The notes beneath the pieces are model-generated. The model was not told the origin of the DNA. It saw only the letters and a list, made by a program, of their open reading frames with translations, and did no database searches. Positions 32,875-50,796 of a DNA stretch of 64,000 nt are shown here, one piece after another. The stretch covers positions 248,001 through 312,000 of the forward strand of contig NZ_SJCY01000004.1 of assembly GCF_004354365.1 (NCBI RefSeq), written 5' to 3'. Both the position numbers and the translations under genes were made by a program. The DNA comes from Pedobacter changchengzhani. GTDB taxonomy: Bacteria; Bacteroidota; Bacteroidia; Sphingobacteriales; Sphingobacteriaceae. The number at the start of each line of letters is the position of its first letter. Position 1 is the first letter of the stretch.

Positions 32875-32979
32875 TTTTTTTTTGAAAACAAAGTTTATTT
32901 CTGAATTTATATTGCCTTTTAGCCACATTTCGATCATTAATCATTAGAATTGATATTTTATCAATGGTTTTTGAACATC

Positions 32980-33060
32980 GCTAGCGTTAACGATTGCAAC
33001 GATATCCTTTTTGGTTTTTTCTACCAAAAAATAAAGTGGAAAGCGTGTTAAAACGCCCAA
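32980..33060. repeat. Dispersed intergenic repeat (copy 2 of 2)
   Basis: Same ordered blocks as 10320-10405, including the TTTTTGG/CCAAAAA hairpin. With the MITE-like element it accounts for the recognisable content of the 532-bp gap between trpA and nhaA. Confidence 0.7.
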
Positions 33061-45056: not shown

Positions 45057-46154
45057 CTATAATCGATTGCTTCTTTGTCTCAATAAATGATCGGCTACCA
45101 CCAATGCGGCCATTGCTTCTACAATAATAACGGCTCTTGGTACAACACAGGGATCGTGCCTACCTTTTCCCTTAATTTCTGCGGCCTCGCCCAACGAATT
45201 TATAGTTTGTTGATTGTGCATAATTGTAGCAACTGGCTTAAAGGCGGTTGTAAACGTAATGTCCATTCCGTTTGAAATGCCTCCTAAAATGCCCCCTGCA
45301 AAGTTTGTGGTTGTTTTAAAATTATTTTCATCCATCGCTTTTGGCTGTGGAATATCGTTATGTTGCGAACCTAATAATTCGCTACCAGCAAAGCCAGAGC
45401 CATACTCAAAGCCATGCACAGCATTTATACTTAGCATTGCCTTGCCTAAATCGGCATGTAATTTATCAAAAACAGGCTCTCCTAAACCAGCCGGACAACC
45501 CTTGACAATACAGCTAATTTTTCCACCTATGGTATCGCCATCTTTACGAACATTATCTATAAACTCAATCATTTCATCAGCAGATTGTGGATCTGCACAG
45601 CGTACAATATTTTGTTCTCTAATGTTTAGCAAAGCGGATAAATCATTAATTTGCAATTCAGGTGCATTTATTTTGCCTACTGAAGTTACATGGGCAAAAA
45701 TTTCAATGCCCTGTTGTTTCAAAAATAATTTGGCGATTGCGCCAGATGCTACTCGTGCTGCAGTTTCTCTTGCAGATGATCTTCCGCCTCCACGATGATC
45801 GCGAATGCCATATTTTGCATCATATACATAATCTGCATGACTTGGGCGATACACATTTACATTATGGCCGTAATCCTTCGATCGCTGATCCTCATTCGGG
45901 ATAAGTAATGAAATAGGCGTGCCCGTACTTTTCCCTTCGAAAATACCTGACAAAATTTGTACGGTATCACTTTCTTTTCTCTGCGTGGTAATTTTTGATT
46001 GCCCTGGTCTCCGTTTATCCAATTCCGACTGAATAAATTTCATGTCGATATCCAAATTTGCCGGACAGCCATCGATAATTACACCAATGGCTACGCCGTG
46101 AGATTCGCCAAATGTGGTTATGCGAAATAATTGTCCGAATGAGTTACCTGCCAT
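45057..46154 (-). CDS. aroC: Chorismate synthase
   Basis: Last step of the shikimate pathway, converting EPSP to chorismate with reduced FMN as cofactor. 365 aa. Signatures: [33 protein letters not shown], the [25 protein letters not shown] block, and [15 protein letters not shown]. Last gene of the minus-strand aromatic cluster; 102 bp after aroA, the gap containing a short GAGTTATGAG repeat. Confidence 0.97.
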
Positions 46155-46256: not shown

Positions 46257-47528
46257 TTATTCTTGCTCTCTAACTGAGAATCCCGCCTTCTTCAAATCTT
46301 CCCAAAAATAGGGATATGATTTTTCTACAACTTGCATTTCTTCAATTTCAACTTCATCGATTAATAGCGCAAGCGGTGCAAATGCCATTGCCATACGGTG
46401 ATCTTCGTAAGTTGAAATCTTTATTTTTTCGGGGAAGTGAAGTTTGTCGGTGTTTAAAGTATAAACTAGATTATCTTCGGTTAAAGTAACGCCAATTTTT
46501 GCCAATTCGGTTTGTAGGGCCAAAACTCTGTTGGTTTCTTTAATCTTTAAAGTCTCTAAACCTGTAAACGACATGTTTTTGCCTAAAGCAGCAGTAATAA
46601 CTATAATGGTTTGAGCCAAATCAGGGCAAGTTTTTAAGTCTAATACACCTAAAAGTCCTGAAGGGGCTTTTGCTTTACTTAACGAGATTCCGGTATTGGT
46701 TTTAGTTGTTGCGATACCAAAAGCTGTCATTATTTGCTTAATCTGACTATCGCCCTGCAAACTTTTATCTTTTAATGCTGGTAAAGAAATTTCAGCATCA
46801 TCGGCCAAAGCGGCTATGCTATACCAATAAGATGCAGCACTCCAATCGGGTTCTACGATTAATGTTCCCGATTTAAAATTTTGTGGTTTAATAGAGATTG
46901 AATTTCCATCCCACGCATTTGCAATACCAACTTCGGCCAGCATATCTAAAGTCATATCTACATACGGTTTAGAAGTAAGTTCGCCCTCTATTTCTAAAGT
47001 TAAACCTAACGGAAGTTTTGGTGCAATCATTAATAAAGCAGAAATATACTGACTGCTAACATCACCTTTAATTTTCACATGTCCATTTTGTTGATTTAAT
47101 GGACCAACAATATTCAACGGAGGGAAGCCTTCATTTTCTGCATAAGAAATATTGGCGCCAATGGTTTTCAAAGCTTCTGCTAAAATCCCGATAGGGCGTT
47201 GTTTCATCCTTTCGGTTCCTGTTAGCAAGAAATTACCATTTTTGGCAGATAAGTATGCAGAAAGGAAACGCATGGCCGTTCCAGCAGGACCCACATCTAC
47301 CGTTTTTGATTCCTGAATTTCTACGTCCAAATCATTTTCCAAGTGATTTAAAATTCCATCAAGCGTAACCGTATCTGCAGCGTTTGATAAGTTTTCTACC
47401 TTAACTAATTTCTTACTTAAAGCGCTAATAATCAAAGCTCTATTGCATTCGCTTTTTGAGCCAGTTAATTGTATTTCCGTATTAATATTCTTGGTTCCTT
47501 TAAAAGAAACTAAGGCATTTTTTGACAT
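46257..47528 (-). CDS. aroA: 3-phosphoshikimate 1-carboxyvinyltransferase (EPSP synthase)
   Basis: Adds the enolpyruvyl group of PEP to shikimate-3-phosphate. Start at 47528 (MSKNALVSFKGTKN) gives 423 aa; an upstream ATG at 47570 would read through a palindromic repeat. Signatures: LTGSKSECNRALIISAL, VGPAGTAMRFLSAYLSAK (PEP loop) and the C-terminal YEDHRMAMAFAPLAL. Second-last gene of the aromatic operon. Confidence 0.95.
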   Translation of the reverse strand: MSKNALVSFKGTKNINTEIQLTGSKSECNRALIISALSKKLVKVENLSNAADTVTLDGILNHLENDLDVEIQESKTVDVGPAGTAMRFLSAYLSAKNGNFLLTGTERMKQRPIGILAEALKTIGANISYAENEGFPPLNIVGPLNQQNGHVKIKGDVSSQYISALLMIAPKLPLGLTLEIEGELTSKPYVDMTLDMLAEVGIANAWDGNSISIKPQNFKSGTLIVEPDWSAASYWYSIAALADDAEISLPALKDKSLQGDSQIKQIMTAFGIATTKTNTGISLSKAKAPSGLLGVLDLKTCPDLAQTIIVITAALGKNMSFTGLETLKIKETNRVLALQTELAKIGVTLTEDNLVYTLNTDKLHFPEKIKISTYEDHRMAMAFAPLALLIDEVEIEEMQVVEKSYPYFWEDLKKAGFSVREQE

Positions 47529-47546
47529 TTTATAGCCTCTCTCTAA

Positions 47547-47567
47547 CCCTCTCCTTAATGGAGAGGG
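47547..47567. repeat. CCCTCTCC/GGAGAGGG palindrome
   Basis: Perfect 8-bp arms around TTAAT, between the DAHP synthase gene and aroA. A common type of intergenic palindrome in these genomes. No T-run follows, so not a terminator. Confidence 0.6.
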
Positions 47568-47664
47568 CACTTTAAGTTTTAAATTTAATTTTTATAAGAT
47601 CCGTTACTTTGAACCTAAATCTTTCGCTTTTAAGCTTTGGACTTTCCGCTTTAAGCTTTTTACT

Positions 47665-48804
47665 TTAGGCTTTAAGCTCGCTATGTTGTTCAGCAGCAAT
47701 TCCTTTATCGGCTTTGCCAGCGTTCATTATTTCTGTTTGCTTACGGATAGATTCGCTGTGAACCAATTCTAAAAACTTTTCGGTAAAGTTTAAATCCAAC
47801 TTTAAAGCTTTAGCAAAAGCGTGTCCTTTCTGAAGGATAGAATCCCAACGGTTAACCTGTAAAATGGTAACTTGATTATCGCGTTTAAATTCACCAATTT
47901 TTTCAACGATAGACATACGTTCGCCTAATTTCTGCATTAAAATATCGTCAATTTTATCAATTGATTTACGCATTTCGGCTAATTTATCTGCAGAAACTTC
48001 ATTTTGAACTTCAGGATCGCGGATGGTTAAACGGTCTGCTAATTCTGCCAAAGCAGCCGGCGTTAACTGTTGCTTAGCATCTGTCCAAGCAGTTGATGGA
48101 TCAATGTGAGCCTCAATCATTAAGCCTTGCATATCTAAATCTAAAGCTTTTTGTGATATATATGGGATTAATTCGCGATTACCACAAATATGACTTGGAT
48201 CGTTTAGAATTGGTAATTCAGGACATAAAGTTTTCAATTGAATAGCAAGTTCCCACATTGGTTCGTTACGGAAAGAACTCTTTTCGTATGATGAAAAGCC
48301 ACGGTGAATGGCACCAATTTTAGTTATACCTGCACGGTTAATGCGCTCAATTGCACCAATCCATAATTGTAAATCAGGGTTAATTGGGTTTTTAATTAAA
48401 ACAGGTACATCATGGCCTTGTAAAGCATCAGCAATTTCTTGTACTGTAAACGGATTCACGGTAGAGCGAGCACCAATCCATAAAATATCAACACCTGCAG
48501 CTAAAGCTTCTTCAACATGTTTTGCGTTGGCAACTTCAACAGCGATTGGTAAACCAGTTTCTGCTTTAGCACGCTTTAACCATTCTAAGCCTATACTTCC
48601 AATACCTTCAAACTCTCCCGGACGAGTACGTGGTTTCCAAATTCCAGCTCTTAAAACCGATACTTTACCAGTTGCTGCAAGCAAATGCGCTGTAGTTAAT
48701 AATTGTTCTTCAGTTTCTGCACTGCATGGGCCAGAAATGATTAATGGTTCGTTTTTTACCGTTAACCAAGTGTTTAATGGCTGAATGTTTAAATTTAATT
48801 TCAT
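47665..48804 (-). CDS. Bifunctional DAHP synthase / chorismate mutase (AroQ type)
   Basis: 379 aa fusion. Residues about 1-265 are a class I DAHP/KDO8P synthase barrel (IISGPCSAETEEQLL, RAGIWKPRTRPGEFEG, HRGFSSYEKSSFRNEP, NDPSHICGN), the entry step of the shikimate pathway. Residues about 275-365 are an all-helical AroQ chorismate mutase (KLAEMRKSIDKIDDILMQKLGERM). In related Bacteroidetes enzymes the mutase domain lets prephenate or chorismate inhibit the synthase. Second gene after the Phe/Tyr attenuator, so entry into the pathway would respond to Phe/Tyr supply. Confidence 0.93.
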   Translation of the reverse strand: MKLNLNIQPLNTWLTVKNEPLIISGPCSAETEEQLLTTAHLLAATGKVSVLRAGIWKPRTRPGEFEGIGSIGLEWLKRAKAETGLPIAVEVANAKHVEEALAAGVDILWIGARSTVNPFTVQEIADALQGHDVPVLIKNPINPDLQLWIGAIERINRAGITKIGAIHRGFSSYEKSSFRNEPMWELAIQLKTLCPELPILNDPSHICGNRELIPYISQKALDLDMQGLMIEAHIDPSTAWTDAKQQLTPAALAELADRLTIRDPEVQNEVSADKLAEMRKSIDKIDDILMQKLGERMSIVEKIGEFKRDNQVTILQVNRWDSILQKGHAFAKALKLDLNFTEKFLELVHSESIRKQTEIMNAGKADKGIAAEQHSELKA

Positions 48805-48914: not shown

Positions 48915-49748
48915 TTACACTTTATCATTTTTTTGATATTCTCCGAGGATGTTGAAATTGCTGGTGTATTTTAACGCTTTTCTCACTGCCTTATCGTACT
49001 TTTCGGTAGTTGGCCATTCTAAGTCAACATAAAAATAATATTCATTTCTTTTACCTAAAACTGGCATAGATTGTATTTTGGTTAGCGTAACATCTTGCTC
49101 TGCAAAGATGTTTAGAACGGTTGCCAATGAACCTGCTTTATGGCCAACTTGAAAACAGATGGAAGCTTTGTTGATTTTTTTTCCTTCGTCTGTTTTGTCT
49201 TTTTTTAGAATATGAAAACGGGTGTAGTTTTTTTTGTTAGATTCTACACGTCGTTCTAAAATATTTAAACCGTATAACTCTGCTGCTAAACTATTTGCAA
49301 TAGCCATTGTGTCCGTTAATTTTTCTTCTTGAATCCGTTTTGCGCAAGCTGCAGTATCGTTGCTTTCTACAATTTTAATATGTGGGTAATCGTAAAAGAA
49401 ATCAACACATTGGCGTATAGCGATGGGATGTGAGGTTACAATTTTAATATCTTCAAATTTAACACCGGGTAAGGCCATTAAATGTAGTTGAATAGGTAAA
49501 TAAACTTCACCTACTACAGAAAAACCGTAATCTCTTATTAACGTGTAATTTGGTAATAAACTACCTGCAATTGAATTTTCGATCGCCATAATGACGAAGT
49601 CTGCTTCATTTTTATCGAGTTTATCGCAAGTTTCTTTAAAGGAATTGCATTCTAAAGTTTCGATATTTTTACCGAAATATTTAAAAGCTGCTTCTTCATG
49701 AAAAGAGGCTTTAATTCCTTGAATAGCTACACGTTTAATCGTTTCCAT
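48915..49748 (-). CDS. pheA: Prephenate dehydratase
   Basis: Converts prephenate to phenylpyruvate. 277 aa: catalytic PDT domain (residues about 5-185, with ENSIAGSLLPNYTLI, ESNDTAACAKRI and the NYTRF motif) and a C-terminal ACT domain for Phe feedback (KASICFQVGHKAGSLATVLNIF). There is no fused mutase; that activity sits in the next gene. First structural gene after the leader and attenuator at 49765-49890, so it is regulated both by enzyme feedback and by attenuation. Confidence 0.95.
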   Translation of the reverse strand: METIKRVAIQGIKASFHEEAAFKYFGKNIETLECNSFKETCDKLDKNEADFVIMAIENSIAGSLLPNYTLIRDYGFSVVGEVYLPIQLHLMALPGVKFEDIKIVTSHPIAIRQCVDFFYDYPHIKIVESNDTAACAKRIQEEKLTDTMAIANSLAAELYGLNILERRVESNKKNYTRFHILKKDKTDEGKKINKASICFQVGHKAGSLATVLNIFAEQDVTLTKIQSMPVLGKRNEYYFYVDLEWPTTEKYDKAVRKALKYTSNFNILGEYQKNDKV

Positions 49749-49764
49749 TTTTTATTTTTAAACA

Positions 49765-49838
49765 AAAAAGTCCCGGCCATTGGCCGGGACTTTTTATACA
49801 TTTTAATATTTTATATTATTTTGCATATTAGCCCCGGC
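49765..49838 (-). promoter_or_regulatory. phe attenuator (antiterminator and intrinsic terminator)
   Basis: On the minus strand the terminator is AAAAAGTCCCGGCCA / TGGCCGGGACTTTTT (49781-49795 and 49765-49779), a 15-bp arm match at a tight centre, followed by T-rich sequence and then the pheA ATG 17 nt later. The antiterminator strand GCCGGGGC (49838-49831), encoded by the last three leader codons, can pair over eight bases (one G-U) with GTCCCGGC of the terminator 5' arm. A ribosome reaching the TAA at 49828 covers it. Confidence 0.87.
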
Positions 49839-49890
49839 TCTCACTAAAATAGTAAAAGTAACCAAAGTAATATGTGTTAAAGTTTTTCAT
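49828..49890 (-). CDS. phe operon leader peptide, Phe/Tyr-rich
   Basis: A 20-codon ORF, MKNFNTYYFG followed by YFYYFSESRG and TAA. Nine of 20 residues are aromatic: Phe at 4, 9, 12, 15 and Tyr at 7, 8, 11, 13, 14. Such a run is very unlikely by chance and matches the products of the operon it precedes (pheA and the DAHP synthase/chorismate mutase gene). It is functionally analogous to enterobacterial pheL but senses two amino acids. A promoter lies 16 nt upstream and the terminator/antiterminator follows directly. Mechanism is inferred. Confidence 0.88.
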   Translation of the reverse strand: MKNFNTYYFGYFYYFSESRG

Positions 49891-49906
49891 TTTTTTTTCG
49901 TTGAGC

Positions 49907-49937
49907 CAAATGTAGCAACAAAATTTAATTTGTCAAT
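49907..49937 (-). promoter_or_regulatory. phe operon promoter
   Basis: Minus strand ATTG (49937-49934), 19-bp spacer, TACATTTG (49914-49907). Fits TTG-N19-TAnnTTTG. Expected start near 49901, 11 nt before the leader ATG. Confidence 0.75.
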
Positions 49938-50029: not shown

Positions 50030-50353
50030 TTATAAACTATCAATAATTTTTTGAATATCTGCTTTTGTTATTGTCGCTTCTTCAGATTTGTCGTAAATAT
50101 AAATTAAGTTCACCTGGTTTTCTGTTTGAAGATAAGTGATAACGCGATAACCCCCACTCTTACCCTTTCCTTTACTTTTAACGGCCAGTCTAATTTTAAA
50201 AACGCCATTTCCTAAATCTATGCCAAGTTTTAAATTTTTGGATAATTCAAGCTCTAGATGATGTAGTTCATTAACTAATGATGGATGCTTTTTCTTTAAC
50301 TGCTTTGCTTTTTTTATAAAAACTTTTGAATATACAAAGCTTACATTTGACAT
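50030..50353 (-). CDS. RelE/ParE-superfamily toxin
   Basis: 107 aa, basic. The core fits the RelE/HigB fold: FIKKAKQLKKKHPSLVNELHHLELEL helical pair, GNGVFKIRLAVKSKGKGKSGGYRVITYL strands and LIYIYDKSEEATI near the C-terminus. The family cleaves mRNA at the ribosome or poisons gyrase. Its start overlaps the stop of the 63-aa upstream gene by one base, the normal antitoxin-toxin layout. Target is not predictable from sequence. Confidence 0.8.
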   Translation of the reverse strand: MSNVSFVYSKVFIKKAKQLKKKHPSLVNELHHLELELSKNLKLGIDLGNGVFKIRLAVKSKGKGKSGGYRVITYLQTENQVNLIYIYDKSEEATITKADIQKIIDSL

Positions 50354-50544
50354 TATATATCCTTTAAAGATAGAGGCTGCAGCTTTCCTTCGCTAATTTG
50401 TTTAGCTTCTTGTAGGCCTTTTTTTATGCCGTCTAATAAATTCTCTTTTTTTGAAGTTTTCACAATTTTGCCATTAATCCTTTTCAAAACCTGTAAGAGG
50501 AAATCGGTATCTTTATCATCTACCTGAATTGTAAGTGTTGTCAT
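50353..50544 (-). CDS. Small antitoxin partner of the RelE/ParE toxin
   Basis: 63 aa, starting TTLTIQVDDKDTDFLLQVLKRI, with a lysine-rich middle and a helical, toxin-binding type tail (IKKGLQEAKQISEGKLQPLSLKDI). This is typical of Bacteroidetes antitoxins that pair with RelE-like toxins. It precedes and overlaps the toxin gene. Antitoxins of this size usually autoregulate; no clear dyad was found in its upstream region. Confidence 0.75.
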   Translation of the reverse strand: MTTLTIQVDDKDTDFLLQVLKRINGKIVKTSKKENLLDGIKKGLQEAKQISEGKLQPLSLKDI

Positions 50545-50796
50545 GTCGCAATAAATTGTTTATTCAAAAATACAAAATATTTACAAATTAGTTTTATTAT
50601 CTATTTTTAAAGGTTCGTAAATTTGATGATTGTTTTATTTCAGTCGAAAATTGTCCGATGAAACACAATCTTTGTTCCTAAACCCGATTGCAACGGAAAG
50701 CCTCAATTTTTCATTGAGCTTGAAGTGTAAAGCGGGACTTTCGGCCGCCAAAAACCACTTACTTTCGTTTCCAAACCCGTCAAAAATATTGTTAAA

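Follow-up and report, generated by a model that had tools for sequence, protein, structure and literature searches.

A predicted Phe/Tyr attenuator with an aromatic-rich leader peptide upstream of pheA in Pedobacter changchengzhani and its relatives

The region upstream of pheA in Pedobacter changchengzhani very probably carries a ribosome-mediated transcription attenuator that senses two inputs, charged tRNA-Phe and charged tRNA-Tyr, as judged from the sequence and its comparison with related loci. The predicted switch is widespread, being present before the majority of the related pheA genes that were compared. The window studied here is the whole stretch of 64,000 nucleotides from this species. 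An earlier note made from its sequence had interpreted the region as a Phe/Tyr attenuator, and this interpretation is supported by the conservation of the leader and by covarying pairings.

All elements of the leader lie on the minus strand. The promoter (49907..49937) is of the type TTG ... TAnnTTTG, which we take to be the Bacteroidota consensus. Direct reading of the minus strand gave ATTG (49937-49934), a 19-nt spacer and TACATTTG (49914-49907), confirming the ATTG-N19-TACATTTG arrangement given in the earlier note. The leader peptide ORF (49828..49890), supported by the sequence as read and by conservation, runs from ATG at 49890 to TAA at 49830-49828 and translates into MKNFNTYYFGYFYYFSESRG; it indeed has 20 codons with four Phe and five Tyr, as had been claimed, i.e., nine aromatic codons in 20, upstream of pheA and a gene for a DAHP synthase/chorismate mutase (DAHPS/CM) fusion. 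Strand 1 (CATATTACTTTGG, 49862..49874), within codons Thr6 to Gly10, forms the 5' side of a protector hairpin and TAATATG (49824..49830) its 3' side, both recognised by the fold and by pairing in 66 leaders. Strand 2, the antiterminator strand GAGCCGGGGCT (49830..49840), is GC-rich, codes for Ser-Arg-Gly and extends into the stop codon; it pairs with strand 3 (AGTCCCGGC, 49783..49791; fold and pairing), so that the proposal of an antiterminator strand in the last leader codons was borne out. Strand 3 is common to the antiterminator and the intrinsic terminator (49765..49795; fold and pairing in 66 leaders), which has a 3-nt loop and a T run overlapping its 3' end, and which ends 16 nt before pheA (48915..49748, start 49748). 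The GC-rich terminator noted earlier just before pheA is present, but its stem comprises 14 bp (eight of them G-C) and not 15 bp. A folding energy of -41.9 kcal/mol was obtained for the 151-nt leader, versus -21.6 +/- 3.4 kcal/mol for shuffled sequences (z -6.0, 0/200).

Based on these elements, RNA polymerase would start near 49901 and a ribosome would enter the leader peptide at once. With ample charged tRNA-Phe and tRNA-Tyr, the ribosome would reach the end of the leader and cover strand 2; strand 3 would then be available to strand 4 for pairing, so that the terminator would halt transcription before pheA. With Phe or Tyr in short supply, the ribosome would stall at any of the nine Phe/Tyr codons, leaving strand 2 free to capture strand 3 ahead of the synthesis of strand 4. 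Transcription would then read through into pheA and the DAHPS/CM gene, probably also into aroA and aroC.

Three sets of pheA upstream regions were compared. The Pedobacter-type set (80 kept of 98 found; 77 titled Pedobacter and three Sphingobacteriaceae) may overlap in species with the family set, which consists of 90 of 135 matched genomes (the 30 best and 60 hand-picked for spread, with the genome of the window included). The distant set of 40 comprises 28 of 29 matched genomes outside the family (G174 being left out) and 12 more, which were the strongest new matches of a second search in which 65 other matched genomes were left out; by kinship label, three of the 40 stretches fall outside the class (L202 and L205 with a leader, L212 without). 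Genomes without a PheA match (16/151, 86/119 and 11/99) were not included, and the counts are not independent, the rows being related and partly of the same species and the first two sets sharing a genus.

The detector used in its strict form requires at least six Phe/Tyr in any 10 codons of a short ORF, together with a terminator ending at most 140 nt from the stop codon; the presence of a terminator in relatives is thus part of the detection rule. It recovered 80/80 Pedobacter-type, 86/90 family, and 26/40 distant regions, while only two of 508 500-nt windows across the 64 kb were positive, both representing the pheA leader site. At a threshold of five, which gives the counts of leaders before pheA used below, the real regions scored 80/80, 87/90, and 26/40 and the shuffles 1/400, 2/450, and 2/200 (5/1050 in all), with 6/508 in the window scan. 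These results bear on the explanation that the ORF encodes a functional small protein or is a chance ORF before an ordinary terminator. Short hydrophobic peptides can be functional, and this speaks for a small protein. However, none of 1050 dinucleotide-shuffled upstream regions passed the strict detector, nor did any other site in the 508 windows, in agreement with the earlier statement that chance is very unlikely. Moreover, beyond the family the peptides have little in common except their aromatic content, and the antiterminator strand is kept and compensated; the explanation is therefore hardly conceivable.

Comparison with relatives, which the earlier note had proposed as a check, revealed that the leader ORF is kept upstream of pheA, as are the Phe/Tyr codons in it. 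Phe and Tyr codons both occur in all 193 detected leaders, with at least two of each in 191. The peptides themselves differ widely (e.g., MNTKNTYTYFWHFYFSDKSRD, MRNINTYLFGYFYYYQ, and MLQNTWQGFYFYFYFFYKS), aromatic richness being the constant trait. Six Pedobacter-type leaders start with TTG; an apparent loss of the leader in L045, L057, L061, L062, L073, and L077, which a scan for ATG alone misses, was rejected on these grounds. The three family loci that were missed (L150, L170, and L171) have a divergent PheA with 42% identity. By eye, 30 of the 40 distant stretches have a leader, the four additional ones (L184, L194, L195, and L197) showing a lower aromatic score or a terminator with a longer loop; no leader was found in the other ten, eight of which were read by eye, and these ten count against the attenuator. 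The leader had been called unusual in Bacteroidetes, a view at odds with the 26/40 distant upstream regions that pass the detector (30/40 by eye) and with PMC9723704, in which a structured 5' element had already been noted ahead of pheA in Flavobacteriaceae. In L174 (upstream of pheA, G173), a promoter-like TTACATTTG and a terminator of the pheA type were observed with no aromatic leader ORF between them; here the leader was possibly lost by deletion.

The promoter motif TAnnTTTG was located at most 75 nt ahead of the start of the leader in 78/80 Pedobacter-type loci (136/1600 in shuffles), in 79/87 family leaders (157/1740), and in 12/26 leaders of the distant set (40/520). Directly before the leader promoter of the window (50030-50544, minus strand), a gene for a RelE-type toxin (PF06296) was observed with a small ORF upstream, which has no Pfam match and perhaps encodes the antitoxin. 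Two Flavo-1 RNAs (Rfam RF01705) are also present in the window, at 50676-50743 and 32979-33054, both on the plus strand, one of them approximately 0.9 kb upstream of pheA.

A covariance model built from 66 family leaders, with rough E-values, gave 121.3 bits for the window, which is itself in the training set. It matched 23/40 distant stretches at E < 0.01, and 14 of the 40 scored above 41.2 bits. Since plain terminators of the own genome that have no leader also reached up to 41.2 bits (E about 0.001-0.003), the weaker distant matches prove little.

The alternative pairings were examined in an alignment of 66 leaders out of 107 non-redundant ones. In the terminator, 91.7% of the cells were paired and changes on both sides were found in 10/12 tested pairs; the seven pairs of the protector (CATATTA/TAATATG) were paired in 87.5%, with changes on both sides in 3/7. 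For the antiterminator (strand 2/strand 3), 90.4% of the cells were paired and 6/9 pairs had changes on both sides. There were 15 double-change cells versus 4.8 in shuffles, none of the 500 shuffles reaching 15, although the number of double-changed pairs taken alone (six) was matched by 32/500 shuffles. When the partner was slid by 1-3 columns, pairing fell to 18-56%. Covariation of both hairpins in relatives, which had likewise been proposed as a check, was thus found for the terminator and the antiterminator. As strand 3 takes part in both the antiterminator and the terminator, a share of its changes have counterparts in each: leaders whose strand 2 contains CCAGGAC usually carry GTCCTGGC in the terminator, an exception being L059, in which strand 3 is partly mismatched. 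An initial pairing test (strand 2/strand 3 against shuffles, p <= 0.05) was anchored on the stop codon and was positive in 79/80 Pedobacter-type and 77/87 family leaders but only in 12/26 distant ones. Among the 26 distant leaders, swapped partners gave -7.3 kcal/mol versus -10.5 kcal/mol for the native ones, with a mean rank of 0.26 (0.5 by chance).

The distance between the aromatic codons and the antiterminator strand follows a fixed register. Counted from the first base of the last aromatic codon, the start of strand 2 lies 5-16 nt downstream in 193/193 leaders as compared with 531/1930 shuffled spacers, the range having been taken from the data before the shuffles were counted. The end of strand 2, on the other hand, lies anywhere between 25 nt upstream and 13 nt downstream of where the stop codon ends, and the position and frame of the stop vary. 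In eleven family leaders (e.g., MQQINTYYFGYFYYYQ) the ORF is cut short by an early stop codon, and strand 2, which elsewhere codes for SRD, is situated at or past this codon. Because these early-stop leaders retain the strand past the ORF, the bases of strand 2 are kept for pairing and not for the peptide. The position of the ribosome on the aromatic run therefore appears to be the quantity measured, and the register, fixed despite changes of frame and stop, provides a clean comparative picture of the constraint on such switches.

A terminator switch run by a regulatory protein or a small molecule, with the ORF being incidental, would be compatible with the strong and conserved terminator. The fixed register from the last aromatic codon to strand 2 would, however, be needless for a switch that works independently of ribosomes, and the occurrence of both Phe and Tyr in every one of the detected leaders also argues against such a switch, which is extremely unlikely. 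A riboswitch, T-box, or leader of a known Rfam family was considered as well and rejected: at the gathering score, Rfam gave no match over the leader of the window or over any leader at 14 pheA loci (that of the window included), and the lack of an Rfam family over the leader counts against a protein or small-molecule switch too. The sole Rfam match in those 14 loci was Flavo-1 in L083, outside the leader.

Arrest by the nascent peptide, in which the peptide itself stalls the ribosome, perhaps with an aromatic metabolite bound, is known from TnaC-type leaders. In favour of it, 76 of the 80 Pedobacter-type leaders have 20 codons and a nearly constant central peptide, mostly TYYFGYFYYFS or TYWFGYFYYFS. 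This constancy is, however, explained in part by the RNA pairing of the bases concerned. In the wider family and in more distant loci, aromatic residues are exchanged and reordered, the length varies, and aromatic richness alone persists; furthermore, the C-terminal SRG/SRD is dispensable as a peptide, considering the eleven family leaders that end earlier. Peptide arrest is accordingly very unlikely.

Attenuation by ribosome position was modelled by assuming a footprint that extends 15 nt beyond the first P-site base, with equilibrium folding of the RNA up to strand 3. The probability of the antiterminator was 0.91-1.00 with codons 2-14 in the A site, 0.62 with Phe15, 0.16 with Ser16, and 0 from Glu17 on, which places the switch point at the last aromatic codon. 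Among the aromatic codons, the model thus gives antitermination when the ribosome stalls at those numbered 4-14 and partial antitermination at codon 15. With no ribosome, and before strand 4 was made, the probability was still 0.97, so that the protector hairpin looks like a weak guard and a shut-off in the absence of translation is left unexplained by the equilibrium model. With the full-length leader, i.e., with strand 4 present, the terminator was favoured at every ribosome position. Since the terminator wins at equilibrium once strand 4 exists, antitermination must be kinetic.

The genes downstream are in keeping with the leader codons. In the window, pheA, encoding a prephenate dehydratase (PDT domain), is followed by the DAHPS/CM gene (47665..48804), by aroA for EPSP synthase (46257..47570), and by aroC for chorismate synthase (45057..46154), the last two being the probable third and fourth genes of the operon. 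The four genes are on the same strand (minus) with gaps of 94-110 nt, no terminator-like site was found on that strand in the gaps from pheA to aroC, and the same order was also observed in one other genus of the family (L239); aroA and aroC are thus probably under the control of the leader. The GTG listed as the start of aroA may be too far upstream, the true start being downstream. An inverted repeat, CCCTCTCC...GGAGAGGG, was noticed before aroA (47540-47575, minus strand), where it appears in the listed N-terminus as PSPLRRGLERG; it looks like a dispersed repeat.

Downstream genes were also read in 20 hand-picked loci. In 19/20, the DAHPS/CM gene follows pheA with no more than two intervening genes, the 20th locus being cut off by the end of its contig. 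In 12/20 loci exactly two genes, of the size of an aminotransferase gene and tyrA, are located between pheA and DAHPS/CM, and in the one such locus checked they encode an aminotransferase and prephenate dehydrogenase. The mixture of Phe and Tyr codons would be accounted for by an operon that serves both amino acids, and this match between operon genes and leader codons is a point for the attenuator. In the lineage of the window, we infer that tyrA left the operon and both inputs were kept. A 425-aa protein that resembles prephenate dehydrogenase but is very divergent is encoded in the own genome on another contig than pheA (L213, 1318-2595); it scored 28.2 bits against PF02153 in one search and 26.2 in another, with a cut-off of 26.5, and its best solved relative is prephenate dehydrogenase 1 (E 2e-13). 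This protein may be the TyrA of the lineage. The own genome also encodes a protein with an aromatic amino acid hydroxylase domain, but a scheme in which Tyr is made only from Phe is not needed to account for the Tyr codons.

Leaders were also observed before other amino acid genes. In the own genome, L301 (G000:C2:98357-98483, minus strand) has the leader MNFNSTIITIIINTTGINQRG and a 16-bp terminator directly before an ORF that is presumably aspartokinase-like. It scored 56.9 bits with the covariance model of the pheA leader, the next-ranked matches in the own genome being plain terminators. The layout is the same as in the pheA leader, with a similar leader end (QRG) and the terminator just before the gene, but Thr/Ile codons replace Phe/Tyr codons; Thr/Ile leaders are those of the thrL type, and L301 is a predicted thrL-like attenuator. 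Upstream of trpE in the own genome (L215, about 705-850), a Trp leader beginning with MINNIHSWLWQ was found, with WWW in many relatives; of the 30 family loci taken (L240-L269), 29 were readable and 27 showed a Trp leader with a terminator, a count made without a shuffled control. Upstream of hisG (L217, L270-L299), a His-rich ORF occurred in 29/30 loci (likewise without a shuffled control), with HHLHLHH or HHVHFHHRHCGD, often followed by a short hairpin such as GTTTCTACGTGAAAC. An intrinsic terminator after this leader was found in 0/29 at a cut-off of -6 kcal/mol, and the hisG leader would have a different output.

Taken together, we tend on balance to favour a single ancestral Phe-or-Tyr attenuator on an operon of pheA, aminotransferase, tyrA, and DAHPS/CM, which would have been inherited across Bacteroidia, with both inputs kept after tyrA left. 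It would belong to a set of leader switches (Phe/Tyr, Trp, Thr/Ile, and His) that makes ribosome-coupled attenuation the default means of controlling amino acid synthesis in the phylum, the His member lacking a recognisable terminator and having another output. If attenuation works in this way, the first ribosome must trail RNA polymerase closely in Bacteroidota, which include soil, water, and gut bacteria. Ribosome-polymerase coupling outside the enterobacteria is an open question, and the pheA leader would allow it to be tested in this phylum. As the leader has no Rfam match and its ORF is too short for standard gene calling, the regulation of pheA is probably unannotated in many genomes.

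Related observations have been published for the phylum. In Flavobacterium psychrophilum and other Flavobacteriaceae, transcriptome mapping showed pheA to be preceded by a structured 5' element without an Rfam match, and the authors also described strong clues that leader peptides attenuate amino acid operons (PMC9723704). That element and the Pedobacter leader share the gene and the phylum, and neither is in Rfam; the section describing it gives no leader sequence, codon content, antiterminator, or range past Flavobacteriaceae (PMC9723704). In the parts available, short ORFs reminiscent of leader peptides were described in Bacteroides (PMC7366714) and leader genes were counted in Bacteroidetes with pheA unnamed (PMC4833913). 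No description of a Phe/Tyr leader in Bacteroidota was found in the literature, which was judged by titles and in which subscription journals were mostly outside the search. Attenuators were reportedly predicted by Lopatovskaya et al. in 2010 in bacteria including Bacteroidetes, of the same mechanism class. The textbook case is the pheL-pheA attenuator of enterobacteria, whose leader is rich in Phe and is not known to contain Tyr. Like pheL-pheA, the Pedobacter system has a leader ORF of aromatic codons, alternative hairpins, an intrinsic terminator, and a prephenate dehydratase gene downstream. Unlike pheL-pheA, it mixes Phe and Tyr in its leader, has no Rfam match and a promoter of the Bacteroidota type, and its next gene after pheA is the DAHPS/CM fusion. 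The mechanism is thus known from textbook attenuators, and the Phe/Tyr codons with their two inputs are the particular feature here.
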